A stretch of 64,000 bases of DNA from Gracilaria domingensis (Eukaryota; Rhodophyta; Florideophyceae; Gracilariales; Gracilariaceae): assembly GCA_022539475.1 (NCBI GenBank), contig VCMS01000140.1, positions 141,437 to 205,436 on the forward strand, in the 5' to 3' direction. The position numbers and the translations under genes were made by a program. The stretch's first letter is position 1. Each line of letters starts with the position of its first letter. Of the stretch, positions 14,341 to 44,865 are shown piece by piece. The notes under the pieces were generated by a model that was not told the origin of the DNA, did not search any database, and worked only from the letters and a program-made list of their open reading frames with translations.

Positions 14341-14522
14341 AGTGCTCTCCCGACTTCGCACGGGTTTGATTCTTTCCTTCGTTCTCGTTCTTGTCGAGGA
14401 GTCTCACGATTAGTGATCAAATTGGTTTTTGGGAAGCTACTGCGGAACAGTGGACTCTATAGAGTGTTTTATTTGGTTTTCGTTACTTACCGTTTGGAGT
14501 ATCGAGACCTCTCGTTGTTAAT

Positions 14523-16640
14523 TTGATCTTACCGCTGTTCGGCAGACCGTGGCCCGGTATGGCGCCACCTGCGCCGAACTCTCGAAACGGTGTGGCCAGA
14601 GATGCTGGTGTGTCTCCGCCTAGGCCTCCGCGTTCTCGCGCCTCCGTACCGGCAAGGTCGCCTGACAATGAACAGGTCCTGGAACCCCGGAGAGCTTCGT
14701 CAGTCACGTCGGGTCCTATGGCCGCTTCTACTGCAGGAGCTCCGCCCATTACGAGTATTCAGGCCACGGAGAGACCAGACAATGTGGTTAAAACTCCTGG
14801 ATTCTCGTACCTCGAGGATCAACTGCGTGTCAGTCAGCTCGTGCAAAACTCGTTTTTCGAGGATCTGCAGTATCTGAGACGAAAGCTTGACCAAGCTAAA
14901 ATCGGAGATCCGACCAACGACATTCGTGTCTTACGTCAGAACGTGAATTCCATTTTGGAAAGTCTGGGTGCACCCGCCGCTTTTGTTCAAGCTTACCATT
15001 CTTCTATTCAGGAGCATCGAGCTGAAATTGATCGCTTAACCACTCGGTTGTGTACTCTGGAAGAGATCATCCGTATGGATAACGCAACTGATGCGAAGAA
15101 TGTTAAGAAAGAAGCTTCTAAGCGCTCGGCACGCCAGTCTCCGTATCACGTAAATCGACGATCCAAAAAGGAACTCCGTTACGATTCGGATTCGTCTAGT
15201 TCCAATTCTAGCGTTCGCTCTGCGAAATCTATTTCATCCAGTTCTTCGGACAGTGAGGACGACCGAGAACGGTATGGGAGTCGATCCCGCGGAACGAAGT
15301 CGAAGGCGACATATGCCACTCAAGGAGTGATTCGCTCTCGCGAGAAAGGTAGACGTCATCTTCGACTCAAGGAGTTGAAACCAACGATTCTCCTCTACAG
15401 GAAGCTGTTATCGTATCTTTATACCGATTGGACGATTCATCGTCAAGTTGCACCTCGCGAAGTACCGGTAAGGTAAAGGACCACATCAGAAGACTGAATA
15501 TCGTCTTTACGAAGAAATTGGACGGCGAAGATCCAATTCTGGTACTGGACTTCCTGGCCCGCTTTGTGCAGGAAGCTGACATTCTCGGTATGAACGAGGC
15601 GCAAGCGTTTCTCGCTTTACCCTATTTTCTGTCGGGGATGGCTGAAGATCAGTTTAACTCGGTCCAAGGGTCGTCCCGTGCATCTCAAAGAGGTGTCAGT
15701 TGTTGGCTGGAAGCGGTCCAATATCTCCTGAGATCCTATGCAGCAGGAAGCGCGATTCACAACGCGACGCTCGCTCTACGAGATACGAAACAGAAGACTG
15801 AAGAGACCGAAATGGTTTACTCAACTAGGTTGAGTAAAGCGTTTCATGGCTGTGGAAATGTGTACTCCGCTCAGGACTCAGGAGAGATGTACAATGTTCG
15901 TGGATGGGTTGGACTCTTCTATCAAGACTTTGGTGGCGTGATATCGCGAAGAGAGAGGTAGGATTACGTATCTGGAATTGGTCCAGTATTCCCAGGCTGA
16001 AGGCGAGATCCTCCGTGCTCGGCGCCCGTCGAAACCCCGTCGCTCAAGGGCGTTGCTCGTCAGCGATTCATCTCCATCTCTTTCCTTGGAACGTAGAAAC
16101 TGCGTGAACCCGGATCTGGATAACGTCCACTTCGTTGGAAGTGCTCCCGATTCGTACGGGTCTTCTGACATTCCGTCGTCGCCGACCCTGACCTCGGAAG
16201 GTGACCCCGCACTCTATATGAGAGAAACACGGATACAGGCCACTCCACTCGCTTACGCGAACAACGGCAGACGTTTCTCACCCCCAGGATGGGTGAATGC
16301 GCAGCCGCAACGACGGCCATATGGTAATCGATCTTTCGATAAGTCGGTGACGACCATCTGTCATATTTGTTACCGACCCGGTCATATTGCACCTGTGTGC
16401 ATGTTGCCCGCTCGGGAGTTACCGAAACGTATCGGGTGGTATGAGTTCTTGTCACCAGCTGACCGTGCACGTGTTCCGAGTAAGAATTATGAATGGCAAA
16501 GGGCCAAGTTTGGCAATCCTGTTACAGGACAGAACGTTCGAACTGAGCAACCTCGGAACCAGGCTGAACAGGTAACTGTGACCAACCCCGAACCCGGGAA
16601 TTCAGTTTCCCACTCTGGACAGAGTTTGCCTTCACCGGCC
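14523..16640 (+). pseudogene. gag: Element 1 gag, broken
   Basis: Similar throughout to the intact gag of element 3: a Pro/Arg-rich start, a coiled-coil segment, a Ser/Asp-rich stretch, the shared motif RRHLRLKELKPT, a capsid-like core and a CX2CX4HX4C zinc knuckle (CHICYRPGHIAPVC, near 16357). It is a fossil with a few breaks. Confidence 0.75.
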
Positions 16641-16749
16641 AACCCCCGCCCAGAAATACTAAACTTGGAAATTCCCCGTGCGGGAGGGGCGTCTCCTCAG
16701 TCGAAGTCGGAGACGCCGGAGGCGCCGCCGCTTCGCTCCCAGGTCATTT

Positions 16750-19700
16750 TCCTTGAGAGGAAGATCCTGACGAGGAAGATGGCTCAATCTGACGTGGACT
16801 CAGAGATTCTAACGTCTCTCCGTCGTCTGTGGGTACGGTCCCGAAATTTTCGTAACCCGGATAGAGTCCTTGTGATGGCCAAGAAGAATTATAAGGTTTA
16901 CGCCGACCTCGGCTTATTACACCAGTTTATGGTTCGTCAACTCTATGTGTTGGACACGGGCGCTGCGCCCAATCTCATTCATCTTCGTTAGTGCCCCCGG
17001 CACTTCGGGAATTCGTTTGCTATGGTCCAGGCTTGGATATCGCAGACGCGAACAACAACCAGTTGCGCACGGTTGGTTACTTAACTTTCACAGTGAGACT
17101 TGGCACCTACGTGGTGAAACTTGAATTTGTTGTCTGCGATTCACTCGCTGCACCGGTTATACTCGGTTGTGATTTTTGCGATCGCTTTGTTGAAGCGATA
17201 CGCCCGAGGGCGAGAATCGTGGAAATGGAAGACGGTACAACCATTCCGATTGTTCGGAAGCTGTTGAGGCGCGCAATTCGGAAGCGCGTTTCGTTACCTG
17301 TCGCTCAGACGGTTCCAAATGTGGATCCGAAATCAACAAAGCTTCCCTCAGCGAAATCCGTTTCAATCCCGCCGGAATCCCAGGTGTGGGTGCAGTGCGT
17401 CTCCAAACACCATGGAATTCGACTAGTTAAACCGTCTTCATCGTTATACGATCAGCGACAGCTCGCTTTAGCTAATGGTGTCTTTTCTATCGAGCCCGAT
17501 CAAACTTTCAAGGTACTGGTTGCCAACTTTGGCAAAACCACTCAGTGGCTAGTGAAACATCAGGTACTGGGTTCGGTCCTGCCGCATCCGAAGGCACTCG
17601 TACAAACGAGAATCCCAACTTCCGAGTTTCTCGGTGTGCCCGAAGCTAAGGAGGGGGAGGCGCGTCCTGGAAACTTCGTTTTGTCGGATTCCTCCAGAAA
17701 TGAAAACACCGCCGTACCGGAAGCAGTTGCTACTGAAGAGGTGAATCTAGTTAGTTCGGACCGCGAACGACCGTTCACTTCAGTTAAATCAAAGCTGCCC
17801 TTTGGCACAGAACAGACGAATCCTGTTGAGGAATTAGAGAAGTTGAATCTAGACCATGTCCCAACGTCTCATCGCAAGAGGTTGCGAGACATGCTAAGAG
17901 AATTTATTCCCATGTGGGACGGTTCCCTTGGAACAATTGGAATTCCGGAGCACCGTATTGATCTGCTCCGAGATACTCGCCCCATCGCGCAACACCCGTA
18001 TCGGGCACGCCCGAAAGCGCGGGAAGAAGAAAAGTCTCAAGTCCAGAAGATGCTACGTGCCGACGTAATTGAGCCAGCTCTGTCGTCATGGGCATCGCCC
18101 GTTGTACTTGTTCCGAATTCGGATGGATCGTGGCGTTTTTGCATCGATCACAGGCGACTCAACGCCGTTACCGTCAAAGACGTGTATCCGATTCCACGGA
18201 TGGATGAGTATATCGACTCGCTGGGAAGCGCCAGAATATTTAGCGCCCTTGACGCCAATTGTGGCAGGTTCCAATTCGAAAGGAAGATCGCGACAAGACC
18301 GTGTTTGTATGTCACCAAGGACTGTACCGTTTCAAACGGATGACCTTCGGGCTAACGAATGCTCCCGCTACGTTTCAGCGCGCGATTGATATTCTGTTGG
18401 CCAGATTCAAGTGGAAGACTTGTCTTGTGTACTTGGACGACATTGTTATATTTTCCAACAGTATGGATAAACATATGTCCCATGTGAGGGAAGTGATGCA
18501 GGTTCTGCGTGACCCAGGTGTTACCTTGAAGCTCAAGAAATGCGGATTCTTTACCGACTCGGTGAAAGCCCTGAGCCACATTATCCGCCCAAGGAAACTC
18601 TCGGTCGACGAGGTAAGGGTGAAGTCGCTGAAGGAAGCGAAACATCCGACAACTCAAAACGAACTCCGATCATTTCTCGGTTTGTGTAATGTCTACCGTC
18701 GATTCGTCCGAATTTCGCTGATAATGCAGCTCCTCTCAACTCTCTCCTCAGAAAAGGACAGCCAGTTAAACTGGAACCATTCGGCGATCCGGAAGCATCC
18801 GCCTTTTCGTCGTTAATCGACGCTGTTACGTCTCCGCCGATTTTTGCGTTGCCAACTCCATGGCTTCCATATGACGTTGATACTGATTCCAGTGACCACC
18901 AAGTGGGGTGTGCATTGTTTCAGGTCTCGCAGGAAGGCGAGCGACGTCCAGTTGGATACTGGTATCGTTCATTGAACGTGCATGAGCGTAATTACTCAGT
19001 CCCTGAGAAAGAGTGTCTCGCCGTCGTTTGGGCGCTGTCTACTTTAAGTCCCTATCTCATGGGAACCCATGTTTAGGTACATACCGATCATTCGGCTCTC
19101 TGGTGGGTTATGGAGATCTCCGAGCCGTCGGGTCGCCTTATGCGTTGGCGTCTCCCTCTATCGGAATTCGATTTTGATGTCCGTTACAAACGGGGCACCC
19201 TGAAAATGCAGGCGGACGCGCTTTCCCGCTTAGGAACGTCTGGTGAAGCAGAACCTGTCGACGACGACGACATACCATGCTTCTTGATGGAAGACTGGGA
19301 GGAAGACTCCGAAATTACGGACGACGTCTGTGACGATATTCTCGCCGAAGAAACGGCCGAGCCACGGCCTGGCTCATTTAAACCCATTACCGCTAAAGAG
19401 GTAATACGTGAACAGCACGGGGATCCTTTCTGTACTCAGATAAGGGCCCGACTCAACGGGGGATTCAAGATACCCTTTCTAACCAACGATCAGGGATTCC
19501 TTGTTAGGATTGTTGGGCCACGCCCTCAAATTGTGGTTCCACACTCCCTACAATGGAGGTTTCTCCATATATCCCACTACGCAAAAATTGGGGGACACCC
19601 TAGTGGCAGGAAGTTCTATCTAATTCTCCGAAGAGACTTTTGTTGGCGAGCTATGGCATTCGACTGCTGCGCAGTACGCCGTTCATGCACGGAATGCGCC

Positions 19701-19945
19701 AAGAACAACGTCGAACTCCGACGAAATTCGAAGTCGATGAGGCTGTTCCCAGCCCGGGCTTCTTTGGAGTTCGTCGCTTTCGACATTCTGGGCGAATTAA
19801 TTCGAACCCCACGTGGTCACAGGTATCTCGTGGTTATCACGGACAGGTTTTCGAAGTTAATGCGAACGGTTGCGTTGAAGCGGATCACTGCAGCAGCAGT
19901 TGCACAAGCATTTGTGACGCATTGGGTCTTCACTTGCGGACCACC
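16750..19945 (+). pseudogene. pol: Element 1 pol, 5' portion, broken
   Basis: In order: aspartic protease (LDTGAAPN near 16956), reverse transcriptase (YLDD near 18430), RNase H, and the zinc-binding and first core part of integrase, all closely matching element 3. It is interrupted by the insertion of element 2 at 19946. It carries several breaks. Confidence 0.8.
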
Positions 19946-20515
19946 TGTGGTATAACCGATCCGTGCGAGCTGTGAGTGGGGAGCCCTGCGTGGGTTCGAC
20001 CATGCGGAGGAATGAAACGCGTGACACCTAATAGGTCGGCAGCACCCGCCGTTGCCTATAGTGCACGATGACCAAGTGGTAAATACGCCTGCACTGGTGT
20101 GCGGCAGGCACGTATTACCCTCGAGGTCAGCAAAACTAATAGAGGACTACTAGACTTACCAATTGGTGACAGTAGAACCGAACTGGTGTCGAATTAGCCT
20201 AGTTCGTGCTTGACTTTACCATTTGGTGTGGGAGGTCGGCGTCTCGGGGGTTTAGTACACCCGAGCGCCCCTCCGGCTCTCACGGGCCTAGTGTCACGTG
20301 GGCCACCGGGAGGTGCATTTGTGGTGCACCACCCCGCCACATATCTACACTACCTAGTAAATTTTAATTCTAAAGTAATGAAAATAAACTAATTAGTCCT
20401 TGCCAAGCCCGCGCTTAGCGTCCCCCGTAGTACAGTAGACACACGTGCCCGGAAGCCCGTGACGTCAACACTTGGTCTTATAGCGTCCCCGTCGATCCGG
20501 CCGAGCTATACTACG
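19946..20515 (-). repeat. Element 2 3' LTR
   Basis: 570 bp, begins TGTGGTATAACC in plus-strand reading. It matches 30848-31420 along its whole length and contains ACCANNTGGT at 20071, 20158 and 20218. Confidence 0.9.
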
Positions 20516-21277
20516 AACCCCCCTCCTACGACAGGCACGCCCCGTGGCTGTGGAGTTCTCCCGGCGTTTGCCGCCTTTTCACCAAACGGTCGTCGGCGCA
20601 CGTCGCCTGGCGCATGGCGCGTCTCGCGATGACGCGAAGGTGGCGCGGCGTTTGATGCGGTCCGCAAAATGAACTGCAGCGCCATTACTCGCGTTGAAGT
20701 GCCCCCTCGTGCGGTATGTGCGATCGTTACTTACCTTCCTTGCGGTATTGGGACGCGAAGCCGCGAAACGCGACCATTTGGGCTGATCCCGTCGTGCGCG
20801 GTACCACGTGGTTATCTTCACCCCTTTGGCTCCTACCGGAGGACCCCCTCGTCTCGCCTCCGCCCATCCGTCATCTCCCTGGACGGGTTATTACCGGCTT
20901 ACCATTTGGTCTCGTGCTTCCCGTCGGTGGGATCGCAGTTGTCAACCGATCGGCATGCCGCCCCCTCGTGGTGTCGCTTCTGTCCTTTCTCACCGGCTTG
21001 GTCTTCTTTCGTCCTTGGGGCTCCCTCTGGGCTGGTGGTGGCCTCTTTTTTTCACGGAACCCGCCTAATCGGCGCACCAATCTGGTCCTTCTCAATGTGT
21101 GTCAGCTTGCTCGTCGAGCGGCTTGCCCTTTCTCCGCGGCCCTTCAGGTCTCGTTTGGTCGTCCAATTGATGGTGTTTTCGTTTTCTACTGTCTTTCTTA
21201 CCTTCACTCCGGTTTATCCCTCGCGGTTGGTATCCTCCTTAGCACGCTCCCGCTCCACCTCTCTCCTTTCATACCTC
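20516..21277. other. Element 2 internal spacer between polypurine tract and antisense ORF
   Basis: About 760 bases. Next to the LTR lies the polypurine tract on the minus strand (AGGAGGGGGGTT). The rest would be the 5' leader or promoter of the plus-strand antisense ORF. It contains ACCANNTGGT at 20803 and 20901. I see no convincing gene of its own. Confidence 0.4.
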
Positions 21278-24038
21278 ATGGGTGATCGATCAGCTTCCCC
21301 AACGGGGTGGTCAATGACGTTCAAATGCCGTGAAGGCGGTGCTGAAGAGAGTGTCGCTCCCGCCCCTCCCAATGTGGTAGACCACGGGGATGAGACGGCG
21401 CCGTTTCAATCGAGTTATCACGTGGTTGATTCTTCGCAGCTCTGTCTGGCGTCCCAGGCCGGTACACCCGTGTCCGTTCCATCGAGCGCTAAGGCCCCCG
21501 TAGTGGCCAACCAATTGGTACTGGAGAAGCCGCGCTACGACCCTACAAAGGGATATTCCGCTTCTGAAGTTTTCCACCTCACCGGAGGCCAACCGCTGGG
21601 TCCACGAAACCGCTGTCGCCTGGTCGAGGATGTCCGGCAAAACCCCTGGGGTAGCGCGCGGCCGTGGCGGTGGCATCTTCAAGCCTAACACGCGGTCGAG
21701 TACACGCTCTCGTCAAGACCCGTATGGTCGCGCTGGGTATGATCCTTACGCGGCCACCGCCGGTCCGAGCAACGTTAACCCTCTTGCAGTCGCTGGTACG
21801 GTGGAAGCTCAACAGCTGAATCCTCATGACCTTAACAGGACGCACGGGCAGCCGCATGCCCACTATGGTGCACGCTTTGCCGATATCTCTGCCGAATTGG
21901 TCGCTCTGGGGAACTGACCTTTCCACATCAGTTCCTCCTTCTGTCCCTTGCGGTTCCGCCACATGTGTCTCACGCAGTATACTACGGTTGCCCGTTGGGA
22001 ATGTCGACGGTTGGAAGCGGTGCCTATGGCGCCGCCTCCACCACGCAAGGGCGAGAAGCAGAGCCGGTTCGGTCGACAACAGTGTTTCCATGCGCGGCAG
22101 TGGCACACGAAGTTCCTATACTACATCCCCGTGGCCATACCGTCGGATCTCTCCTTCATCCGCTGCAATGGGGAGGTCCACTACTTCCGCCGTTTGGTAT
22201 ATATCCTTCACCGCTTGGAAGAACCTGCTACCGACATCGAGGTCGATCTGGAGTACATCGCGTTTGAGCGCCCTTTAGATACCAATTATTGGACTGACCG
22301 TGGGAGGTGGGCGACCGACGCGATGGCTGAGAGCCGTGTTCGTCACCGTAACAACCGTACGCGGACAATTTTCCTACTCCACAACGTTGAGTATTGGTCA
22401 CAGAGCGACCAGAACCGCCGGGCATGTTATGTCAATCGACCCTCTTGGTGGGACCACTATGAAGTATGTCAGTGGCTGGAAGTGCCGACCCCGCCGGTCC
22501 TTGCGTACTTTGGTAGTAGCATCTCCCTCGAGAGGAACAATGTATATGCCGTTTGATCGGTCGCGCGCAGCGAGTGGGCCGTTATGGTGGCTATCCTCGC
22601 CCTTCAGGCGTCCGTGGAAGGTGTGACTTGGGACACGCGCTGCCCTGACAAGTCTGTTGGGATCAGCGGAACTCAACCAGTTGGTCGCATCTTCAACATT
22701 GCCAACGATGTGGTCCGTGACATTCGTGCCATGGGGCTCTCCAAGATCGTGGAGGGCACCAAGTGTACGGCGCAGCAGTTGGACAGCTACCTTACGGCGG
22801 TAAGTAACCACAGTTGGGGGCCTGAACATGGTTGGGATGTCTACGACCCGGAGGTTCATAGCATCGTGCCTCTCCAACAGCAGCACATGGCTGGCGAAGA
22901 CCCATTTGGTAACGACGATACCGTGATGGTGGCTGCCGAGAACTATGAGTCCCCAGCGTTGCCTCCTTCGGCGCCCGTACAGGCCACTCTTCCGACCAGC
23001 GTGACTGCGGCTGTCCCAAGTGGTCCAGCAGACCCTCAGGCAGCTGCTCATCCTCCCGAACGGGCCGCCTAGGGGCCTCTTCGGGTTGGTTTCCAGTCGC
23101 TTCCGGTAAACTCGGTACCCGCTGGTGGTGATAGTGGCGCAGTACGAAGCGCCCTGGCCCGTCTCAACCACGCTTCGATGGTGCACTTCAACCGTCCTTG
23201 TCCAAATGGTATCCTCACCGCTGTGGATATTCTCACCAACTTGCTCCCGGTGTTCGCTCACCACGAGCGGCGCACTAGTGAGCTGCGGCAGTTCCACGAC
23301 TACTTTCAGCGCAATCTCTACCGTGAGGTGACAGCCTATGTTGGTCAGTTGAGCAATCTCGTGGAAGGTCACGCGCCGTTACATCGACCTCCTGTGGAAA
23401 GTTTCAACTCGTACGCTCCTGCGTCGCAGCAGCCTGCGACCCCGATGGTAGGCTTTGGTGGCCTTGGCACCTATCAACCGCCTGGTGGACCTCCTGGTGC
23501 CAATTCTTCGGCACCCTTTCATACACCGCTTGGTCCCCATAACGTTTCCCTTCCTCCAGCAAGTACTGGGGCGGGAGCACCAAGTGGTTTCCAAACTGGT
23601 TTCTGTTCGGCTCCGCTTCCGTCGTCGTACAGCGCTCCGATGACACCTGCTGGTCCTGGACCTTCGGGAGTTGGAGCGCCTCCTAGTCTATCCCCTGGTG
23701 CAGGGCCGTCCAGCGGTCTTGCTCCTAAACCGGCCTCTAGTGATATTTCTCCGGCTAGCTTGCCGCCTTCCTTCCATCCACCCACTGGTCCTGCGAACAC
23801 CTTGCCGGTAGTTAGCAGCGGTAACCCCGCGGGGCCTGCTGCTTCTGCTCCATTACCAAGTGGTGGTGCGCCAGCGAGCGACGCTAGCGGCGTGGGCGGA
23901 AGCTCCGCCGGACCTATGTCAGTGTCCTCTGGTCATGGGGGTCCCGTTTCGTCACGCGGGACCTCCCGTGGACGTGGTAGCGGTCGTGGAACCAGTCGTG
24001 GACGCGGACGTGGCCGTTGGTCTTTCAAGGCCTCCTAG
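21278..24038 (+). pseudogene. Element 2 antisense ORF (opposite strand to gag-pol), broken
   Basis: Starts at an ATG at 21278 and ends at TAG at 24036-24038, with an AATAAA signal at 24078-24083. The middle matches the antisense ORFs of elements 1 and 3: a block around PSWWDHYEV, then a Trp/Ala-rich helix ('SEWAVMVAILALQ' against 'TEWTVRVAAFLLIEA' in element 3). The C-terminal third is Pro/Gly/Ser-rich and ends in RG repeats (SRGRGSGRGTSRGRGRGRW), typical of RNA binding. No known domain is recognised, and I see no membrane segment or signal peptide. It is a fossil with a few breaks. Confidence 0.7.
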
Positions 24039-24253
24039 ATTACCTCGTGGTTATCGCTTGTGGGCCCGTCTTTGACTAATAAAGTGTCTTGCGTTGTGCG
24101 TTATGATCTGGTTCCCTTTTCCTGTTAGGTTAGTTAGCATTTCATGTACCATTTGGCGTTCAAAGGCTTAGGCAAACCCTACCTTCCTTAGCGACGCGTA
24201 CCAGGCGAAGCAGTACCAGTTGGTGGGGTCGTTCGCCCCTGTTTGCGCCAGTA
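24039..24253. promoter_or_regulatory. Element 2 gap between convergent antisense ORF and pol
   Basis: 215 bases between the two stops. It contains AATAAA on the plus strand (24078-24083), one near-match (ACCATTTGGC, 24148) and one exact copy (24215-24224) of the ACCANNTGGT palindrome. Confidence 0.5.
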
Positions 24254-27200
24254 TCAAATGATGAAATTGTTAGGAATATGACCTGGTTGTTCCATAGAGT
24301 CGTACTCTGGCGACCATCCGTACCATCTTACCCTGTCGCGGATACGCTTTGAGGTGTGTTCGTGACCTACAATGGTGTCAATAGCACACTCCTGAGTGTC
24401 TACTTGAGGGTGTGACTCTTCCGTTTGTTCGTGGGGTGCGTGGCTCTCCGTGGGTGGTGTGACCTGTTGGTCTCGCCGTGGCTCGATCTCCTGTGCCTCT
24501 TGGGTCCTGGGGTCAGCCGTTAAGGCCCTGGTGGAAGGTTGACCGCTGGGCCGAGTGGTCGGAGGAGGGGCTATGGGAGGCGTTTCGTCCCTTTGCCCTT
24601 CTCTCTGAGTTCGCTCACCTATTGGTTGTGTCCGCGGTGTGGTCGTTTGTGCGGCATTGGCAATCCTGTCGATGGAGACGGTGTTCCCCAAGCCATCCAT
24701 TATGACCGTAGCGGTATGCTCGTCGGAGCGAATCACCTTATATGGTCCCGTCGACTTGGGTAGTAGTTTGGAATTGATATCCTCTTCAATGCGGATGTCT
24801 TCCTCCCTTTCCGCTGGAGTCGGTCGCTTACCTTTCGGTGGTATGTCGTTGAAGAACATGTCTCCGGCTACCACTTTGGTTACTCTGCTCACCGTTCGGT
24901 CGTAATCTGCTTTATACCGTTCTTGGGCTGCTGTCATTTTGACTTTGGCAGCAGCCAGAGCAGCGGGTAACTTCCGGAGTATGTTTCGCTTGACCTTCGC
25001 AGGTGTGAGTGTCCCTGCCGCTTCCGAGCGGTCGGGTCCGGGCTGGACGATAATTCCGTGTGGTGTTCGTGAAAGTACCAGGTCAAACGGGATTGTTTGG
25101 GTGACCCTGGGGACCTGGAGATTGTTCTCATATGTCAATGGTTAGACATATTCCGACCATGTGGTTTGGTGCTCTTCGACGTTGTGCCGTAGGCGTGCCA
25201 CTAGGGTCTTATTGAACCGTTCCAATTTGCCGTTTGTTTTCGGATGATAGGCCGTGGTGAAGTAGTGTTTGACTCCTAGCATGGTGCAAACCGCCTCAAA
25301 GAACTTAGAAGCCAGGTTCGAACCATTATCGGTCAGTAGGTACATAGGAGCACAGTATGGGTAGACTCAGTTCTCCAAGAAGGCTGTCGCCAGTGTCGTT
25401 GCCGTTTGGTTCTTCAGGGTTGTGGCCCTGGTGAGCTTCGTGAACCTATCGGTTATGACTACTACAAAGCGAAAACCCTCCGAGGTCTTGGGCAGGGGCC
25501 CCAGTATGTCGATCGCGACGAATTCCAGCGGCTTCGCCGCCGGGAATAGCTTCAGGTACTTCCTGTGCTTCCTTACACCACCTCGGGTCTTAATGCACGA
25601 ATTGCACTGAGCCACATAGGTATATACGTCGTTAGCCATGTACGGCCAGTAAAATTGCCTCCGAAGGGTATAGTACAACCTCGTGGCTCCAGGTTGTCCC
25701 GAAAGCCTTGGGTTGTGTGACATATACAACACCCTTTGTCTTAATGACTCAGGTACGACCTTCTGGAGAGCTCCGTCTAAAGATAAGCGTCTGATGAGGT
25801 ACCCATTGCGGTCGACGTCGAACTGAGAATCCTTCTTTCCTATTATGTCAGCGAGCGTTTTGCACAACCTATCCCGATTGTTCGCGTAGGAATTCCTCGC
25901 GGGTGATTGGAGCGTGTTCTCCTTCTTCCACAGAGAGAAGAGTCTTGACTACCACTTGATACGCACTGTCATCATGCTAGTTTCCCTTCAGAACTTCCTT
26001 GACCTCGTGGTTGTCTGATTCTATTGTGAAACATGGAATGTCGTCGTCCACTGGGTCAGTCTCCAATCCTTCGGTATTCAACCGAGACATTGCATCCGCC
26101 ACTCTGTGCTTGGCCCCGGGGCGGTACTGCACATCGTAGTCAAACTTTGAGAGTCTCAGGCGCCATCGGGCCAGACGACCCGATGCGTCCGCCAACCCTA
26201 GTATCCACCTCAAGGAGTCATGATCCGTTCGAAGCGTGAAGCGCACACCATATAGGTAAGTACGTAGCATGAGCATACTCCAAACAACCGCTAGGCATTC
26301 TTTCTCCGTTACGGTATAGTTCTGCTCTGCTTGGTTCAGAGCTCTACTCCAGTACGAAATTGGTGCGAGCTTGCCGTCCTTCTGTTCCTGAATGAGGCAG
26401 CAACCTATTTGGGCATCCCACGCGTCTGTGTCCTGCGTATACGGGAGTCCCGTTCTGGGCAGTGCCAGTACCGGTGGGGAGAGAAGCGCTGCTTTCAGTG
26501 TGTGGAAAGCCTCTACCTCGTCTTCTTCCAAGTGGTCGAAGTGTGTGGGTTGCCCTTTCTGCAACATCCGGTTCAGGGGTGCAGTTATCTTTGCAAAGCC
26601 CTTAATGAACCGCCGATAGACGTTACATAGACCTGTAAAGGATCGTATGTCCGTCTGCGATGTAGGGAGCTTCGCTTCCTGTACCGCTCGGATATTCCGT
26701 TTGGTCGCTTCGAGTTTCCCGGGGCTAATTGTATGCCCTAGTTACTCTACCTCTTGGTTAAAGAACATACACTTTCGGAGTTTGAGAGTCACGCCTGCCT
26801 CCAGTAGCAACCGCAATACCACTTGGACGTGTGAGAAGTGTTCTTCAATGGATCGCGAGTAGATGACCACGTCATCTATGTATACCAATGAGGTTGTCCA
26901 CTTTACCTTAGACAGTATGATGTCTAATGCTCTTTGGAAGGTAGCTGGGGCGTTTTGCAAACCGAACGGCATACGTAAGAAGCGATACAGGCCTGCATGG
27001 CATGTAAACGCAGTCTTATCACGATCACCCTCTGGTATTTCGATTTGCCAGTAGCCGCAGTTCGCGTCCAATGTGGTGAATATGTTCGCATCTCCTAGGG
27101 AGTCGATGCATTCGTCCATCCTCCGGATGGGATAAGAGTCCCTCACCGTTACGGCGCTGAGCTTTCTGTAGTCAATACAAAACCTCATACGGGTCTCTCC

Positions 27201-28420
27201 TCGTTTTTGGACTAGCACTACGGGGCTAGCCCATTCCGAGCTTGCCAGCTCTATAACCCACTCGTGGAGCATCCGTTCCACTTACCGCGCGGTATGGCTG
27301 TTGGTGAATGGGACGGGAGTCCGGTTTGAGGTCAATCTTATGCTGGGTGGCCTTAATGGCTCCCAGTTTACCAGACCACATGGCACTGAATGGCTCCAAG
27401 AGTCCGAGGATCCGAGCTCTGAGCTCTTCCCCTCCAAGTCCTATATTCACTTCCGTTTTCCAATTGGTCACTGGGTCGAGCTCCAGTTTCCGGTCTTCTT
27501 GCTCAGCTAGTCGTTGCACCATATGGTCTGTTTGCGGCGGGTTGGCACTGCCTCCCCCCTCCTTACCCTCCACGACCTAGTGGGACCATTGTGGTTTGAT
27601 CGTAAAGATCTTACGAGGAGCCGGTAGGGCCAGACCAATTACGATGCGCTTTGGTAACTTAACCGGGCGGTTGCTGAAGTTACTGAGGTAGACCTGAAAC
27701 GGTTTTGTCGGTATGTTGTCGACTATACCATTTGCCATTAAGGTCATATGTCGTTCGGCCAGCCGTGAGTGGTTTTGAATAGATAATAAACCAGGTTGTT
27801 GGCATGTCACCTTTACTACCAAGTGGTTCATAGGCGGTATCGTTACCGCTTTTGCCAGTCGCACCTTGTTGGAGAGTGTATTTTCCGGAACGGGTTGGTG
27901 GCGAATGCTTTTCTCCGTGGGAGGTGGTTACCAACGATGGCGATACTGGAACCATTGTGGAACAGCACCCTCTTAGAGCGTGCGAAAATCGCCCTGACGT
28001 GCTGGTCTATAAAGGTCGTCCCGAGGATACAGTCTGTTGCCAGTTGGTTAACGACTAGGAAACGGACTCGGACCTTCATGTTGTCAATCAATACCATTAT
28101 CGTAAGCGCGCCCATGACGGTTAATGGTCTGTTATTGGCGTCAACCGGCAGGTTAGTTAATGTACATGGCTGAAGCTTATTAAACTGTCTGTTAGTTAGT
28201 AGTTTGGCATTCACCAGATTAGGTCCTGCACCGGTGTCCAGGACAGTGACGCATGGTACCAAGCGGTTAGAAGTAAACCCGAGGGTGGCATTTTCCTTAT
28301 AGTTACTATACTTGAGGAAGCATATGGGTTCGGTGCCATCCATGAGGCTCTCCTCCCCTGTAACCAGTGGGTAACTGTCCATACTTGCACCACTTGGTTC
28401 TGGAAGGCCTTCCACATTCG
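24254..28420 (-). pseudogene. pol: Element 2 pol with chromodomain, broken
   Basis: From high to low coordinates: aspartic protease (VLDTGAGPN near 28240), reverse transcriptase (FCIDYRKL near 27180; YIDD, near 26880), RNase H, integrase zinc-binding region and core (YLLTDNGSNLASKFFE near 25320), a Pro/Thr-rich linker and a chromodomain remnant (RVRWYGWSPEYDS near 24310). It carries several breaks. Confidence 0.8.
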
Positions 28421-28438
28421 GACAGTTGGGGGAGGCCT

Positions 28439-30723
28439 CTATCCCAACTGTTCGGCGTTTTCCGCCTGCGGGGGAGGCTCCGTTTGGTCTTGCTCCGTAA
28501 TGATGTGTACCTGATGAGGTGTGCTTGCATTTGGGCGCGCATTTGCGTGTCCCGTGCCTGTGCTCCGCGCTATAGCCATATATTGTTTCTGGCCAGGAGA
28601 GCGTTCCATGTTCTGTGGAGCAGTCAGGGGCATGTTCTGTGGAGACACACTCGCGCACGCTATTGCCAAGTGGTGAGGCGATAGACAGAACCAACATAGG
28701 AGATTACCGGTTGTGGGGTCCTTCATCATCGCGAGCGACGGCGCGCGTGTTGGGGGACCACCTCCGGTCGGTGCTACACTCCGTTGCTGCGGGGGTGGTC
28801 TTCTATCACCATATTGGTTGAATGGCACCGCTAGGGCCGGACTGACCGCTACGGATACCTGTGATGGTGGAGCTGAGGTTTGCCTGGAGGGTGGTTCGCT
28901 GGATAGCGAGCTGGACCAGGAGGTGTTACCGCGCGATCGAGTTGTCGGTTGTGCATGCACCAAGTGGACTGGGTGACCCTAGGATGCGTATGGTGTGGAT
29001 GCCTCATCCGTAGTGGTCCCCTCTCCCTCTACGTCAAACACTGACCGCCTGGTTTTTCCTTTCTCCTTCGATGGTTTGTCAAGTGGTGCGGAGTCTTTCC
29101 TGGCGCCTGACCGGACAGTGTTGCCTAGCCCCTGTGCATGTCAGGCTAGTGCGTTGTAGTCGACCGCGCGGCTGGTGGCTAGGTAGTTACGAACCTGTGA
29201 TCGGATAGATTTCGCCACGTTGTCGGCGTACATCGATTTCAACCTCTTGGTAGTAAAGACACTCCCACAGCGCGAGGCTATTGCCAACAGGGAGCGAGCG
29301 AATTCCAATTTCGTTTGTCCCGCGCACTCGCGGTACGCAAGCACCTCTGCGTACGCCTCCTGAATTACCTCATCGGTCGCGTACGTTTCCAGTAGGAAGT
29401 TAACCACCTGTGGGTATGTCATCAACATTTCCGTTTGGTCTTCGTCTACCTCCATGGAGTTTCCTTGGAGGCCGCTATGGAGCAGCGCTCCAGCTTGACC
29501 ATTTAGGTAGAATTGAAACAACCACATGGCTGCTGCCTCTGAAAACCCATTCTGGTCACAAGCGATCTTCAACCTTTGAAGGAAATCAATGATCGCAATA
29601 GGGTCATCCCTGCTAAAGCGAGTCTCACCCAGTTGGAAACGAAGCTTCCTATGATGCTACGTTATCTTCTGAGCTACCTCTTTGGTATACTCAGCCTGTC
29701 TGTTCTCCAACCTATAGGTACGATAGTCAACCGCTTTGGTGAATAAATAGTTAAGCGGTGTAAGCACATCTAGGTCAGTCTCTTCATCGGAAGTTGAGTC
29801 CGAATCATTGTACCTTTCGGTCTTACCCTTGCGGGTATTCTTTCCTTTCTTCTAACGAGAGTCCTTCCTCTTGCGTCGTGAAAGTTTATGGTCGTCGTCT
29901 CCTGACGACTCCGAGTCGGTGCCTGAGGAGGAAGAGTCCGAGTCCGACCGGCGACTCTTTCTCTTTCCCCTTTTGGTTTTCTTCTTCTTACCATTTGGTT
30001 TACGTCGACGCTCGTCTCCTGAGCTCGACGAATCTCCATCAGGGTCTCCACCATCTGGTCCTAACAGAGCTACACCAGTGGGTTGAGGGAGGTATACGTA
30101 CCTCGGGCCCTCCATGCCAGGAGGCTCTGCCCCTTTCCCCATGGGGTCAATAAATCCTTCACCAATCGGTTGTGTAGGAAGAATAGGATAGAGAGTACCA
30201 AATGGTTTCGTGGCATCTACAGCCGGCAAGGGAGCATGCTTCATGAGGGCGGCCTGGGCCATCATCTCAGGTTGAAGCATGGCCCCCTGCTTCTGCAGAG
30301 CCAGCATAACCAATCGGTCAATGTCTCCTCGTACCTCGTTCTCTAGGTACTGTAACACCACCACGGGTACCTTGTCGAGGACCTCCTGGAAGGCTCGATC
30401 AACTACCACACGGGTGACCTCGTCCAGGTCCAGTCGCGGCCAGACTGGCACCTCCGTTTGGTCTACCACTGGGGTTGTTCCAGGAGCGGGCTCCTCCGTT
30501 GCGGAACCTGCTCCTCCGTCCACTTGTTCAGCCCGGGGAAGGGTCGAGGGGCCCCCAGCCTCTCGGTCTACCTTCTTCCCCCTCGGTGAGCGTTCCTTCC
30601 GAATCAGGTACTCCGGGTTATTCAACACCGGATAGGACACTGAACCCCGTACGGGGTGGCCACTTTGTGGAGCGCTCGGCGCCCTTTTCGGATGACGCAT
30701 GCCCCGTTTCTCCATTTAGGTAA
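28439..30723 (-). pseudogene. gag: Element 2 gag, broken
   Basis: Starts near 30715 (MEKRGMRHPKRAPSAPQ). It has an acidic/Ser-rich stretch (SSSGTDSESSGDDD), a capsid-like helical core near 29150-29570 and a zinc knuckle CWFCLSPHHLAIAC near 28700. It is less similar to the other two gags than pol is. A few breaks. Confidence 0.7.
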
Positions 30724-30827
30724 CTGGTGTCGGAGCAACTTGCTTCGGCAACGGGAACCAAACCACTCGGGTATCTCGTGACTTCCAAATCCTCCCTTTC
30801 CAGAACCACTTGGTTTTCCACAAATTA

Positions 30828-30842
30828 TAAGTCGGGAGACCA
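30828..30842 (-). other. Element 2 primer-binding site
   Basis: TGGTCTCCCGACTTA on the minus strand, 5 nt inside the 5' LTR of element 2. It is identical to the site in element 3 and close to that in element 1. Its complement would end a tRNA in GGGAGACCA. It does not fit initiator-Met as I know it, and not the tRNA-Asn in this window. Confidence 0.75.
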
Positions 30843-30847
30843 AAATA

Positions 30848-31420
30848 TGTGGTATAACCGATCGGTGCGAGCTGTGAGTGGGGAGCCCTGCGTGGGTTCG
30901 ACCATGCGGAGGAATGAAACGCGTGACACCTAATAGGTCGGCAGCACCCGCCGTTGACTATAGTGCACGGTGACCAAGTGGTAAATACGCCTGCACTGGT
31001 GTGCGGCAGGCACGTATTACCCTCGAGGTCAGCAAAACTAATAGAAGACTACTAGACTTACCAATTGGTTACTGTAGAACCGAACTGGTGTTGAATTAGA
31101 CTAGTTAGTGCTTGACTTTACCATTTGGTGTGGGAGGTCGGCGTCTCGGGGGTTTAGTACACCCGAGCGCCCCTCCGGCTCTCACGGGCCTAGTGCCACG
31201 TGGGCCACAGGGAGGTGCATTTGTGGTGCACCACCCCGGCCGCATATCTACACTACCTAGTAAATAATAATTCTAAATTAATGAAAATAAACTAATTAGT
31301 CCTTGCTAAACCCGCGCTTAGCGTCCCACGTGATACAGTAGACACACACGTGCCCGGAAGTCCGTGACGTCACCACTTGGTCTTATAGCGTCCCCGTTGA
31401 ATCGGCCGAGCTATAATACA
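30848..31420 (-). repeat. Element 2 5' LTR
   Basis: 573 bp, ends ATAATACA in plus-strand reading, followed by the target duplication CCACC. It contains ACCANNTGGT at 30973, 31060, 31120 and 31372; the last copy is lost in the other LTR. Confidence 0.9.
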
Positions 31421-33641
31421 CCACCCGTTAATCTGCTTTCAGACAATAGCTCGCATTTTGCGTCAAAGTTCTTTATGGACGTATGCCGTATCTTGGATGT
31501 CAAGAATTTGTTTACAACAACCTATCATCCCCAGTGTAATGGGCAGGTAGAACGATTTAATCGTACCATGCTTAACGCATTACGATCCTATGCTGCGGAT
31601 CACCCAAAGGATTGGGACTTGTACACCGATGCTATTACGTACGCGTATAACACCCAAGTGCATCGGGTAACGAAGCTTTCGCCGTTTGAACTCGTTCTTT
31701 CGAGGATACCGCCACCGGTAGCAATCGAATCACAATTGACGCTAGCGTCTTTCCCGTCACCACGGATGTACAAGGACACCTGGAAAAATTGGTTAACCAA
31801 GATGGTACCGTAGCCCGGAAGGCCATGGACAAGGCACAGCTTACGTACAAGCGTAATTTCGATCGCCGACTTCGCGGTACACCAGTGGTGGTAGAGCCAA
31901 ACAGCTTTGTGTTCCTTCGAAAGGAGTATTACAATCCTGACAAGGAAAAGAGACATAAGCTCCCCCCCATCGCCGATGGCCCCTATCACTTTGTTTCGGT
32001 CAATCCGGATACTGTGGTACTCGACATTGACGGACGTCATGAACGAATTTCGGGTGACCGCGTTGTGCCCGCCCCGAGGCAACCCACCGCTACCGGGCTC
32101 ACCTCAACCAATACCCAATCAGGGGATCCCCAACAGGAGGCAGAACCATCAACGGCCGCTACACTTCCGTCGCGCCCGGCGATTCTTCCGCACCCGGATG
32201 GAGGATTAATTGATCTACCTACAGTAGGTACTTCTGAGAACAGAACTGAACTTCTTACTACTTGGACGAATTCCAACGACTCTGCACGAGTATTTACAAG
32301 AGTAGCCCCCCCACCCCATCTCCTGATGGAGCCCGTGGCGCTATTTAAGGATGGGGAGGCAGCTGCTGCGATTGGCATTGATGCTCCGGTGCCGCCCGGT
32401 TCCCCAACCACGGGAAATGTGATCCACACTGACAATCCAGTCGCTTCCGTACGAGAATCTAGTGGCACGGTCGCCTCGTCAAGCCCCGATCGCGAGAACG
32501 CCTCTGTATCGTCCGCCGATATCACAGAGGATGCTCGTACTCCCCGCAAGAGGCGGAACGTCGCCGCAGAAGCAGCTACTCATCATGTGATTGCTAACCG
32601 CTCGAAGTCGCGTAACCGCGTTGAGAATGACAGTCGAACTGTGAAGACAGTTTCCGCTGATCCGGACCAGCCGCCATACGCGGAAAAATAGCGCTGCAAC
32701 CCTGAAAGGGGAAGCCTCGTGAACGAGTTGTGTTGAATATCACCATTCATTATGGATTCCCTTGTAAGACGTTTAACGCTTTCTCGGAAGCCGACACTCT
32801 ACAGTCTGAACCACGTCGCGTGTGGAGATTTGGAACCCCGCCACTACTGCAAGAGTGCAATCTCCGTGACACAGGGCCTGACAGCACCAGGCGCGTGCAA
32901 CGCGGTGGCACGTTACAACGTGGAAAGCGCTAATGAGCGGTCGGCGACCTTTCGCGAACGGATGGCCGAGCACGGCACGCACATGGTTGTCGTGGTTGCC
33001 AATCTGTGGCGTAGAGCCAATCAGAGCTCTTGGCACAAGCCCCGTGGACCGGGTAGACTGCCGCCCTGCCCACGGAGTGCTGTACATACCTCCGTCACCG
33101 AAACGGTTTTCTACGTGAAGGCCGGGAGATTCGTCAACCGGAAGCACTACCGTTTGTCAGTCTCTCGACTCTAGTCGAATAACGTGATACCGTTGGACTC
33201 GTCTGTTCGAGAGCTGTTCAACTAAACCTCTAGCTCGAGGATAGGACGCGTAGGTCGGGAGTTACAGTACGGCCGCCACAGCGGAATGCGTGGAAAACCG
33301 CGAAAGTAAGCCCGTCTCCAACACTTGGAAAGCTTCACCTGAGTGATCTTAGGCAGCTACAGAACCTCTCCAGATGAAACTGCGGCAGCAGGAGTGGCCC
33401 ATACGCCATGGAGGCCCGCGAACGGGATTTGCTCCCACAGGAACTCGTTATTGAACGCATCGTGACTCACGTCGTGAACCCCGATGGGGAGACTGAATAC
33501 CAAGACCATTGGTACGGATACTCACCTGAGGAGGATACTTTCGAGGAGATCGAACATCTACATCGATCGAAGGTTCTCGCCTACTACCGGCGCAAGCCCT
33601 TACCGCCACCTCCAACCTTGGACGCAGTCCAGGTAGGGTGA
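31421..33641 (+). pseudogene. pol: Element 1 pol, 3' portion with chromodomain, broken
   Basis: The integrase core resumes directly after element 2 (VNLLSDNSSHFASKFF, then NGQVERFNR). A Ser/Pro-rich linker follows, then a chromodomain (ERIVTHVVNPDGETEYQDHW, near 33450) and the ending LDAVQVG, as in element 3. Confidence 0.8.
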
Positions 33642-34138
33642 CAGTACTACTGTGCCGTGAGGTGAACCGACGGGCCCACTTGTGGGAGACTTATTGATGG
33701 TACTACCAAGAAGTTTGGGTTGTTCTTATGGAAGGAAGTATTGAAGGGATGAAAGAAGAAAGATGATTTCCGTCTAACGGACGCCGATTTATCGGAAAGA
33801 AGCGAACTACCGTCTAACGGTCCATATGAACAGACCGTGTAATCGCACGCGTAATGATAATTCGTACTGAACGATAGTACGCAAGAAAGCGTTGAACCGT
33901 AATCCGGTTATGAAGGAAGTGACATCGAAGTCGATTTTATTCTAAGCAGAAGTTGCACCGCTAGCTATTACGGAGTGCGTTGGTCGCAGAGCCTACCACA
34001 GCCCATCATGGAAGAAGCCCACCGTTGGGATCACTGCCATCCTGTCGTAGGACCGGCACCTCCAGGGTTGGACGGCCCCGCTTGGGGAGGCTGACTCGCG
34101 GAAGACTGCGGGCCCAATGCCAACAGCTGGCCGAGGTC
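33642..34138. promoter_or_regulatory. Element 1 gap between convergent pol and antisense ORF, with short palindromes
   Basis: Contains TCCGTCTAACGGA (33769-33781), CCGATTTATCGG (33784-33795), ACCGTCTAACGGT (33809-33821), a longer hairpin CGTAC...GTACG (33863-33881) and AACCGTAATCCGGTT (33895-33909). These could be RNA hairpins at converging transcript ends or binding sites for a dimeric protein. Confidence 0.6.
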
Positions 34139-35845
34139 CTACATATCCGGTGGAACCGGCACCCCAAGTCCGAGGAGTTGGTTGCGCATCGCTACCACGC
34201 GAGGGTTGATGTTCCCCTGCGAAGGGCCCACGCCCCAACCAATAGGAGCAACTGGCGCAACCGCCCCTCCGACGACCGGAACTCCTGCGGAAGCCGCCGA
34301 CGGACCTCCCGTGGCCGGGTCTTCCACAGTATCATCCATAATTGGATCGTCCTCCTCTCCTAGGGAGTAATAGTTGTCGGAAAACATGAACCCAACAGGG
34401 TGATCGCTCGGAACCACTCGAGGAAGTCCGCGTAGGACGAGAGCCCGCCCCTTCGGGACGGTCACGCCCTCCCAGGGATCGTAATACACGAAGGCTCCGG
34501 CACCCGGATGTCTTCGCCCTGGCGAACGGTCGTAGTGCCAACGAGTGCCCCTGGGGACGTTTTCCGCCGGAACGGTACTCCAATCAATGGAATCGATGAG
34601 ATCGATAAGGCTGATGGCCTCGCTGACGTTGTCGTCCGAACCGAGCGCGGTGTATAAGTCCAGTGATCTAATCACATTCCGTAACCTCGGAGGCAAATAC
34701 CAAACACGGTTCTGGTCGTATGCTTCCCATAGCATAAACGCGGCAACGCGAGCGGCCCATTCGGCGATGAAGAGCATCCAATACTCCGAGTGCTGATTCT
34801 CAATCATGCGTGACCCCACATAGGAGATGCACGGAGGCAATTTCGGGAAACACCGGCGTGGTACCTCATATTGAGCCCACCACGATGGGAGTGGAGCGAA
34901 TCGACCCGCTGGTGCGTCCGGACGCAAACCTTCAACCTCCATGTTCTGGTGCGGGATCAGATACCCGAACCGGGATCGCCATTTGCGTTCGTTTCGCAGT
35001 CGGTCGAAAAAGCTTCCCTCTCCCGAAGGGCGATGTAGATACCGAAACTTCGCTCGCAGGATAGGCCTGTTGAACAGGAGAATGTCCGCCGGCATCGACT
35101 CCGGGAAGTTTTCCGCAGCTTGGAAGTCCGCGAGGTTCGCGCCATACTTGATCTCTCCGTAAGTTCGGAACCGGGAAAGGTCGAACCCGTATGACTCGGG
35201 AATCCTCTCGGGGAACGAGGCTCAGTCCTCCCGAAAGTAAGCCAATCGCGCCATAGCCGCGCGCGCTTCATCCATCGTTTCGTATCTACGGCCGCGCCGT
35301 TTCGGTGACAACACGTGAGGTGCGACCGCCACGCCGTGTCTCCAATCCCAGTAATCCTCCATATCTTGGTGCAGGCCGCAAGGCAGCATACCGTTCTCGG
35401 TGTATGAATCCATCAACGCACTGTTGCGAACCGCTGTCCGGTGAAACCAGGGCGCTCTGGAATAGGCCCAGCTTCCTCCCGTAGTTGGATCTTGAACAAG
35501 GAGCGATTCGCGCCCCATCCAGCCAGCTGTAGTCGCCAGCAAGGGCACCGCCTGAGCGGAATTCCACGCCGCGACGTCGACCGGGTTCTGTGTAGCCGTG
35601 TGATGTTGATTCTGAGGTAGAGGAGCGGAGGCGAAACCACCGAGATACCCTGACGCAGGAGTTGCTGGACCCGAAACGTTCGGAGCTCCGGCTTGGGAAT
35701 GCTGCTCGTCGCCGTCGTGAGCGTTCATCGAATCATCGATCACAGAAGAAACTTCAAGTACTGAATCGTCTGAGTGCAGAGAAGTTGAGTGCGCTTGCGC
35801 GTGTGTCTCGTTGTGACGAAGAACCGGAATCTCGGCTATGTCCAT
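34139..35845 (-). pseudogene. Element 1 antisense ORF, broken
   Basis: Minus-strand coding region placed between pol and the 3' LTR of element 1. The N-terminal part has WDWRHGVAVAPH, matching WDWIARVAVIPS in element 3. The central part has RNERKWRSRFGYLIPHQ (element 3: RFERKWRSRFGVLVPYQ), PSWWAQYEVPRRC, LPPCISYVGS and EWAARVAAFML. The C-terminus shares a 'GLGVPVP' type ending. Broken, apparently once or twice. Function unknown. Confidence 0.75.
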
Positions 35846-35925
35846 GGTGGACCACGCTGATATACGAGCTTGCTGACCAGTCTCCGCTTGTTAACCGGAT
35901 GTTTCCTGCGCTAAGGAGGGGGATA

Positions 35926-36275
35926 TGTAGGGCAAAACGTGTTCGCCCGATACACGGGAATGGTCTTCATAAATCCCTGATAGGAATGATTCCGGGTACT
36001 CGGAATGTATGAGTATTGGCCCACACATGGGATGCTTTTGGCAGTATTGAGGTACGGTACCCTGAGGGGTCGGCCATGATGTGGCGCAGATGAGTATTGG
36101 TCGCGTGTACGCTTGTGTAGGGATGGGTGTGTTCACACATGTTTCGTTATGATTGTCGGATATTTTACTGGCTGCTACGGCGGGTTGTCACGTGCACCAC
36201 GTGTATGGACCTGCTTAGGTGTGCTTTAGATTATTTAATTTAGTTTAACTAATTTATCGGTTACGATATAAGAGG
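35926..36275 (+). repeat. Element 1 3' LTR, first part
   Basis: Begins TGTAGGGCAAAACG directly after a polypurine tract (AAGGAGGGGGATA, 35913-35925). It is interrupted by element 3 and resumes at 48064. Confidence 0.75.
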
Positions 36276-37132: not shown

Positions 37133-37135
37133 AAC

Positions 37136-37150
37136 TGGTCTCCCGACTTA
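37136..37150 (+). other. Element 3 primer-binding site
   Basis: TGGTCTCCCGACTTA, 3 nt after the 5' LTR, identical to that of element 2. The priming tRNA is not identified. Confidence 0.75.
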
Positions 37151-37296
37151 GAATCGGCTTTATTGGCCAACGATCGTTGGAGCTGGTTCGTTTGTTTGGA
37201 GCCCAGATAGTTGGGAATATCCGTTCTTACGGTTCTCTCATTGCCCGTTTTCGGAAGTTGTTTTGGTTGCCCATTGGCCGACTCTTTCGGTGAACG

Positions 37297-44840: not shown

Positions 44841-44865
44841 CCACCCACGTTCCTATTGAGCGCAG

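Follow-up and report, generated by a model that had tools for sequence, protein, structure and literature searches.

The window, i.e., the whole stretch of 64,000 nucleotides of Gracilaria domingensis DNA that was analysed, contains three nested LTR retrotransposons of the Ty3/gypsy type (Table 1). The LTRs of the outer element, E1, survive only as remnants (14006-14341 and 48351-48685). The target-site duplication of E2 is 5 bp long (CCACC, 19941-19945 and 31421-31425), and one E2 LTR end is mutated. The LTRs of E3 are 99.8% identical and its target-site duplication is AGAGG; TG...CA LTR ends and a duplication of 4-6 bp, as in Ty3/gypsy elements, are found for both E2 and E3. The E3 domains follow the gypsy order (RVT_1, RNase H, integrase H2C2, rve, chromodomain). 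E1 and E2 pol are homologous to E3 pol by BLASTP, with the order protease-RT-RNase H-integrase, and the C-terminal tail of E2 pol resembles that of E3. By sequence, Gag has a CCHC-type knuckle. In C+G content the elements slightly exceed the flank. No relatives of E3 pol were found in the viral contig or genome contig collections searched.

Table 1. Positions of the three elements, their antisense ORFs and the exact ACCANNTGGT copies of E2 within the window.
Feature	Position	Strand	Remarks
E1, outer Ty3/gypsy element	14006..48685	+	interrupted by E2 and E3
E2, Ty3/gypsy LTR retrotransposon	19946..31420	- (sense = minus strand)	sits in E1 integrase gene
E3, young Ty3/gypsy element with chromodomain	36276..48058	+	
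E2 3' LTR	19946..20515	-	
E2 5' LTR	30848..31420	-	94.9% identity with other E2 LTR
E2 gag-pol remnants	24254..29656	-	gag, protease, RT, RNase H, integrase, C-terminal tail
E2 antisense ORF	21504..24038	+	opposite to pol; in-frame stops
E1 antisense ORF	34139..35890	-	one in-frame stop
E3 antisense ORF	45349..47181	-	intact, 610 aa
ACCANNTGGT copies	20071, 20158, 20218		within E2 3' LTR
ACCANNTGGT copies	30973, 31060, 31120, 31372		within E2 5' LTR
ACCACGTGGT	20803..20812	.	exact search
ACCATTTGGT	20901..20910	.	exact search
ACCAATTGGT	21510..21519	.	E2 antisense-ORF region
ACCAGTTGGT	22676..22685	.	E2 antisense ORF; overlooked in original prediction
ACCAAGTGGT	23579..23588	.	E2 antisense ORF
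ACCAAGTGGT	23855..23864	.	E2 antisense ORF
ACCAGTTGGT	24215..24224	.	between convergent ORFs of E2
ACCATGTGGT	25156..25165	.	E2 pol
ACCATATGGT	27518..27527	.	originally given as 27528
ACCAAGTGGT	27818..27827	.	exact search
ACCACTTGGT	28389..28398	.	exact search
ACCATTTGGT	29990..29999	.	exact search
ACCATCTGGT	30050..30059	.	exact search
ACCAAATGGT	30197..30206	.	exact search
ACCACTTGGT	30805..30814	.	E2 leader

All three elements carry a homologous antisense ORF, and the broken ORFs of E1 and E2 were analysed as separate pieces. The E2 product has 25% amino acid identity to its E1 and E3 counterparts over ~145 aa. Between E1 and E3 the antisense protein is 38-42% identical, compared with 58-65% for most of pol; the antisense ORF evolves faster than most of pol. 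The products matched no Pfam or NCBIfam family and no known DNA-binding family; a Pfam search of the antisense pieces at E values up to 1 gave no hit, TRP28 (PF04195) included, and a profile of the antisense alignment gave only chance-level hits in the PDB. No relatives of the E3 antisense protein occurred in the viral contig collection searched, and its AlphaFold model, based on a five-sequence alignment, was too poor for a fold search (pLDDT 43).

E2 is studded with the palindrome ACCANNTGGT. An exact search finds 23 copies in the window (0.87 expected), 22 of them inside E2 (19946-31420), for which dinucleotide shuffles give 0.2±0.5 copies and a maximum of 2 in 200 shuffles. The enrichment described in the original prediction is thus real, and counting against shuffled sequence, the test that it had set beforehand, gives a clear E2 excess within the window. 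Of the 21 start positions that it listed, 20 are right; one was displaced by ten bases and the copy at 22676 was missed. It had also noticed no copy elsewhere in the window, but there is one, at 53429; E1 and E3 have none. Because the E2 LTR pair doubles three copies (20071/20158/20218 equal 30973/31060/31120), about 19 are independent. The 5'-LTR copy at 31372 has a mutated counterpart at 20468 in the other LTR.

Among 4+4 palindromes in E2 (gaps 0-8), ACCANNTGGT is by far the most frequent, the runner-up having 5 copies, and it marks the maximum of a wider enrichment that comprises ACC-N4-GGT (58 versus 4.2 expected from dinucleotide shuffles) and ACC-N5-GGT (30 versus 7). Its middle two bases are indeed free to vary, as had been proposed (10 of 16 dinucleotides are seen), and because they vary so widely we set aside a bHLH E-box reading (CANNTG core). 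The ACC-N4-GGT sites are irregularly spaced (CV 0.97), with no tandem arrangement. ACCANNTGGT was said to lie in LTRs, coding regions and gaps without distinction. It does occur in the LTRs and leader, in the gag/protease and 3' regions and in the antisense ORF; the conserved RT-integrase part has few copies. In each half of the E2 site, positions 1 and 4 are preferentially A, and no covariation was found between the halves. For E2, these statistics fit the two half-sites of the dimer-type site originally suggested.

Dense short dyads are not peculiar to E2, however, since E1 and E3 are equally dense in dyads of other classes. Both are crowded with their own CC...GG dyads, which are inverted repeats whose arms measure 4-5 bp and enclose a spacer of 3-8 bases. 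E3 contains 201 CCNN-(3-6)-N'N'GG inverted repeats, compared with 17.6 expected from dinucleotide shuffles; on the same basis E1 contains 106 repeats of the NCCN type (14.2 expected), and it also has 73 CCNN repeats (14.4 expected). The classes can be written as ACC(A)NN(T)GGT for E2, as N-CC-N arms separated mostly by 4 bases for E1, and as CC-N-N arms separated by 3-6 bases for E3. Each class starts and stops at the boundaries of its element, and dyads span the whole length of each, LTRs and genes alike. Host DNA at 1-13,900 has no excess (5 versus 11 expected from dinucleotide shuffles). The sites show no helical phasing, and those of E3 no codon phase.

The excess goes beyond the needs of the encoded proteins in all three elements. 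Relative to synonymous-codon shuffles, there are 82 dyads in E3 pol (11.5 expected), 38 in E3 gag (5.9), 33 in the E3 antisense ORF (7.0) and 16 in E1 pol (2.0), as well as 9 sites in the E2 antisense ORF (1.4). Chance, composition or protein-coding constraint as the source of the dyads is excluded by both kinds of shuffle together with distant-spacing controls and the flanking host DNA, and we give it practically no weight. A different possibility is that the element has collected sites for a host transcription, chromatin or silencing factor with a CC...GG dyad. The E2 sites do resemble a conventional dimer site, with several copies in the LTRs, but one factor would be expected to leave one class, rather than three classes in three elements of the same genome, and the sites fill coding regions distant from promoters. 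We consider this explanation improbable.

In the arms of E1 and E3 any Watson-Crick pair is acceptable; what is kept is complementarity, not a fixed sequence. In the E3 arms, each of the four Watson-Crick pairs is enriched 8-16x. At the inner test position of E3, where Watson-Crick pairs are enriched ~11-fold, G.T occurs 14 times versus 8.9 by chance, and within the arm it is no commoner than other mismatches. Pairing just outside the E1/E3 arms is avoided (14/246 versus 60.7 expected, a ~4-fold depletion), although G.T is not avoided there. E1/E3 sites almost never overlap, and the E3 flank-pair preferences are mirrored between strands (r=0.94). Since complementarity rather than sequence is kept, a plain dimer reading one fixed motif, which fits the E2 statistics, does not explain the E1 and E3 sites.

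Perfect Watson-Crick arms without sequence identity, in element-specific classes, could also be produced by a mutational process: template switching at quasi-palindromes, by reverse transcriptase or during repair, would overwrite one arm with a copy of the other, and the enzyme of each element would leave its own signature. Such copying predicts chance levels of pairing just outside the arms, where we see depletion, and one overwritten arm, whereas the differences between E3 and E1 are equal in the two arms (1.44 and 1.31 of 4) and match the 33% background. One-arm templated copying is therefore unsupported. A mutational process also leaves the fixed ACC half-sites of E2 unexplained, and we regard it as very unlikely. 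Of 53 E3 sites, only 8 have a palindrome at the corresponding place in E1, and the classes therefore turned over in each lineage.

The dyads might instead act as dispersed stem-loops in genomic RNA, or in single-stranded cDNA, that Gag would bind; they would then be packaging or assembly signals spread over the element, with a preferred stem-loop for each Gag lineage. The E1/E3 sites are hairpin-like in their sequence-independent arms, unpaired outer flanks and near absence of overlaps, they cover the entire transcribed element including its coding regions, and Gag has its CCHC-type knuckle. Many short degenerate stem-loops along a genome have likewise been proposed as RNA packaging signals in small RNA viruses such as STNV-1 (PMC6475782). 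Unlike those signals, the sites described here treat wobble as a mismatch both inside and outside the arms, so that G-U is unused within stems, have strand-symmetric flank preferences, and have CC/GG, at the stem base or close to it, as their only anchor. Covariation is lacking in E2, and for one virus no packaging role of signals of this kind could be discerned in vivo (PMC6475782). E3 loops show no enrichment of stable RNA loops (GNRA-like). The treatment of wobble and the strand-mirrored E3 flanks favour DNA over RNA, and Gag-bound stem-loops seem to us somewhat unlikely.

We favour the reading that the dyads are element-specific self-recognition marks, read on DNA by an element-encoded factor, and put its probability at roughly 0.45. 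The best candidate reader is the antisense-ORF protein; we infer both the reader and its function. The motif class differs among the three elements, and the antisense ORF is homologous in all of them. An element-encoded factor would read the sites at the DNA level, so that the whole element could be recognised, rather than host DNA or a relative. The E2 site would behave as a homodimer target made up of two half-sites. For E1 and E3 it is arm complementarity as such that seems to be recognised, suggesting that the site takes a hairpin- or cruciform-like form. By analogy, the marks would probably serve anti-silencing, maintaining the element's own chromatin in an active state, or else let the element find its own DNA at some other stage of its cycle. 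Several observations speak against self-recognition: the candidate reader matches no known DNA-binding family, the sites lack helical phasing, and a fixed half-site dimer leaves unexplained both the complementarity without sequence identity in E1/E3 and the avoidance of pairing outside the arms.

The original interpretation, which drew on the VANDAL transposons of Arabidopsis and their VANC proteins, is partly supported. VANDALs are Mu-like DNA transposons, and the motifs bound by VANC (YAGTATTAY, AGTTGTCC/AC) are tandem repeats in their non-coding parts (PMC5735166). As there, element-specific short motifs have accumulated within the element and differ between related families, and the element also codes for a fast-evolving non-transposition protein (PMC5735166). 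Unlike there, the elements are LTR retrotransposons, the sites are dispersed dyads rather than tandem repeats and include coding sequence, complementarity is conserved in E1/E3, and the antisense ORF products contain no VANC-like domain that we could find. We favour sites that would be VANC-like in function, yet with no member of the VANC family.

The position of the antisense ORF, between pol and the 3' LTR, recalls plant Ty3/gypsy elements of the Retand/Tat type, in which an antisense ORF in that place has predicted DNA binding and a TRP28 domain (PMC11963269). The antisense protein described here has no Pfam match, TRP28 included, and E3 has a chromodomain, whereas Retand belongs to a non-chromovirus lineage without one; as far as the available text of that source goes, the features described for Retand/Tat do not include dispersed palindromes (PMC11963269). 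A short palindrome at very high frequency is also known from cyanobacteria, where HIP1 (GCGATCGC) is one fixed word, genome-wide and tied to DNA methyltransferases (PMC4390886). Unlike HIP1, the dyads are confined to single mobile elements and differ in class per element.

The open-access literature searched yielded no report of such dyad arrays in LTR retrotransposons. Tentatively, they may represent a previously undescribed "self-code", in which LTR retrotransposons write hundreds of element-specific short inverted repeats into their entire sequence, coding regions included. A co-evolving element-encoded factor would read these repeats on DNA, and in E1/E3 it would do so through the complementarity of the arms and not by sequence. 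No further copies of E1, E2 or E3 could be found, so that the argument for co-evolution is based on three elements. If true, parasite DNA would be recognisable along its entire length through an alphabet of its own laid over protein-coding sequence. This would have a direct bearing on the way in which transposon machinery distinguishes its own DNA or RNA from that of the host and of relatives, and on the divergence of such recognition among lineages. The dyad class might also be of use in classifying such elements, and perhaps in finding their readers.

In the window, an exact search recovers 23 copies of the palindrome ACCANNTGGT, whose middle two bases are free, and 22 of these lie within E2, one of three nested Ty3/gypsy LTR retrotransposons (E1, E2 and E3, the latter two both inserted in E1). 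The expected numbers are 0.87 for the whole window and 0.2±0.5 for E2 alone (200 dinucleotide shuffles for E2), and so the excess noted in the original prediction is borne out. Its list of copies needs two corrections (27528 should read 27518, and 22676 was overlooked), and the motif, which the prediction had noticed only in E2, has one copy elsewhere, at 53429; E1 and E3 contain none. The LTR pair of E2 duplicates three copies, and the runner-up among all 4+4 palindromes with gaps of 0-8 has five copies in E2. The exact 10-mer is the most extreme form of a more general ACC...GGT signal, in which ACC-N4-GGT occurs 58 times in E2 (4.2 in shuffles), and ACC-N5-GGT and ACC-N6-GGT occur 30 and 16 times (about 7 expected for each). 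Single-base variants of ACCANNTGGT with a changed outer or inner A are 4-7-fold enriched, while changes to a C of the CC core leave hardly any enrichment. The half-sites vary independently of each other, as expected if two identical subunits read the site.

Features of the window
Feature	Position	Strand	Remarks
ORF	2897-4834	-	N6/N4-type DNA methylase domain (PF01555, E 1e-12); unusual as a eukaryotic nuclear gene
Inverted repeat, 170 bp	5915-6548		arms 98% identical, 96 bp inside each arm being self-complementary; lies between the 1326-aa ORF and the ORFs on the methylase side
1326-aa ORF	6667-10647		no Pfam match
E1	about 14006-48685	+	gypsy element, broken by E2 and E3
E1 antisense ORF	34139-35890	-
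E2	19946-31420	sense minus	Ty3/gypsy LTR retrotransposon, inserted in the integrase gene of E1
E2 LTRs	19946-20515, 30848-31420		94.9% identical; target duplication CCACC
E2 antisense ORF	21504-24038	+
E3	36276-48058		duplication AGAGG
E3 LTRs	36276-37132, 47202-48058		99.8% identical
E3 antisense ORF	45349-47181	-
ORF	56605-57651	+	acidic protein of tandem DDDYGDDYGDDDRIKNASVRD units; opposite strand also open
GC-rich region	58000-60100		very GC-rich; both strands open over long distances in several frames
Self-complementary stretch	58709-59483		inside the GC-rich region
Argonaute	60498-63794	+	single ORF; PAZ and Piwi, N-terminal tandem repeats

The host is a eukaryote, perhaps a red alga, and its genes here are long and uninterrupted, Argonaute among them.

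Arguably a stronger signal than ACCANNTGGT is formed by hundreds of CC-anchored inverted repeats of 4-5 bp (dyads) in E1 and E3. The E3 class has CCNN/N'N'GG arms and spacers of 3-6 (201 against 17.6 in shuffles, a total that includes the duplicated LTR twice, presumably roughly 16 sites), and E1 has NCCN/N'GGN' arms (106 against 14.2) as well as CCNN arms (73 against 14.4). There is no excess of E3-type or E1-type dyads in E2 (15 against 18; 23 against 18) or in host segment 1-13900 (5 against 11; 9 against 11.5), and a mild one in 48700-64000 (20 against 11; 22 against 11.5). In bins along the window, all three classes change over at element boundaries. When 3-mer arms are counted per spacing, the excess of CC-containing arms is restricted to short spacers, and the reverse order, GG...CC, has little or none. 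The whole comparison is among the three elements of this window.

The feature conserved in E1 and E3 is complementarity rather than sequence. When the remaining three pairs are held constant, A-T, T-A, C-G and G-C are each 8-16-fold enriched at the third arm position of E3, mismatches staying at about 1-fold, and all 16 inner dinucleotides are enriched to about the same degree. Arms longer than 4-5 bp are little above chance. In E1 and E3, the two bases that immediately flank the arms are kept from pairing (complementary in 16/122 against 30 and 14/246 against 60.7), with the same tendency for ACC-N4/5-GGT in E2 (10/88 against 21.9). Overlap between sites is very rare (in E3, neighbouring centres lie 6-16 bases apart in a single case). 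Templated mutation is disfavoured as the source of the dyads, because bases outside the arm tend not to pair and comparison with E1 shows no overwriting of either arm. Nor do the encoded proteins dictate the sites, as counts far exceed those in synonymous-codon shuffles: 82 against 11.5 in E3 pol, 38 against 5.9 in E3 gag, 33 against 7.0 in the E3 antisense ORF, 16 against 2.0 in E1 pol, and 9 against 1.4 for ACC-N4-GGT in the E2 antisense segment. Where E1 and E3 align (63-69% identity), only 8/53 E3 sites are palindromic at the aligned place in E1, which implies turnover of sites after the two lineages separated.

RNA stems would be expected to tolerate G-U pairs inside the arm and to avoid them just outside it, but the dyads do neither. 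Preferences for flanking base pairs are mirrored between strands in E3 (r=0.94 over six mirrored pairs) and for E1 NCCN (0.77), and this mirroring is absent from E2. We read the dyads as a DNA-level signal because the G-U expectations fail and the E3 flank preferences are the same from both strands; alternatively, an RNA-binding protein may demand strict Watson-Crick geometry, or the constraint may lie on sense and antisense RNA alike. The main rival, distributed RNA or cDNA packaging signals, seems to us rather unlikely. As DNA, 4-bp hairpins are of marginal stability (mean -2.0 kcal/mol), so that the DNA would have to be single-stranded, or a protein would have to assist, for a hairpin or cruciform to form.

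All three elements carry, in the interval from pol to the 3' LTR, an ORF on the strand opposite to pol (the antisense ORF). These ORFs are homologous (E about 1e-89 and 1e-21 for E1-E3; about 1e-6, with 25% identity, for E2 against either), and their products have no family match in Pfam, NCBIfam or PDB. Between E1 and E3 they have diverged more rapidly than most of pol (38-42% against 58-65% identity), as has the C-terminal part of pol (41%). The pol of E3 contains RT, RNase H, integrase and a chromodomain; E3 has probably been active recently, given its nearly identical LTRs and intact gag, pol and antisense ORF.

The VANDAL/VANC system (PMC5735166), the precedent named in the original prediction, survives as an apparent functional resemblance to the dyads of E1-E3, but the type of element, the family of the protein and the way the motifs are arranged all differ. 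A study on plant Retand elements (PMC11963269) describes antisense ORFs at the same position, with predicted DNA binding; the TRP28 domain described there is absent from the present ORFs. Among dispersed short repeats, HIP1 (PMC4390886) and proposed packaging stem-loops (PMC6475782) come closest, and in the open-access literature we found no described system of element-specific, complementarity-based dyads throughout LTR retrotransposons. The reading we favour, at somewhat under even odds (about 0.45), is element-specific self-recognition, in which a putative factor encoded by the element, with the antisense protein as the leading candidate, would recognise the dyads of its own element on DNA.
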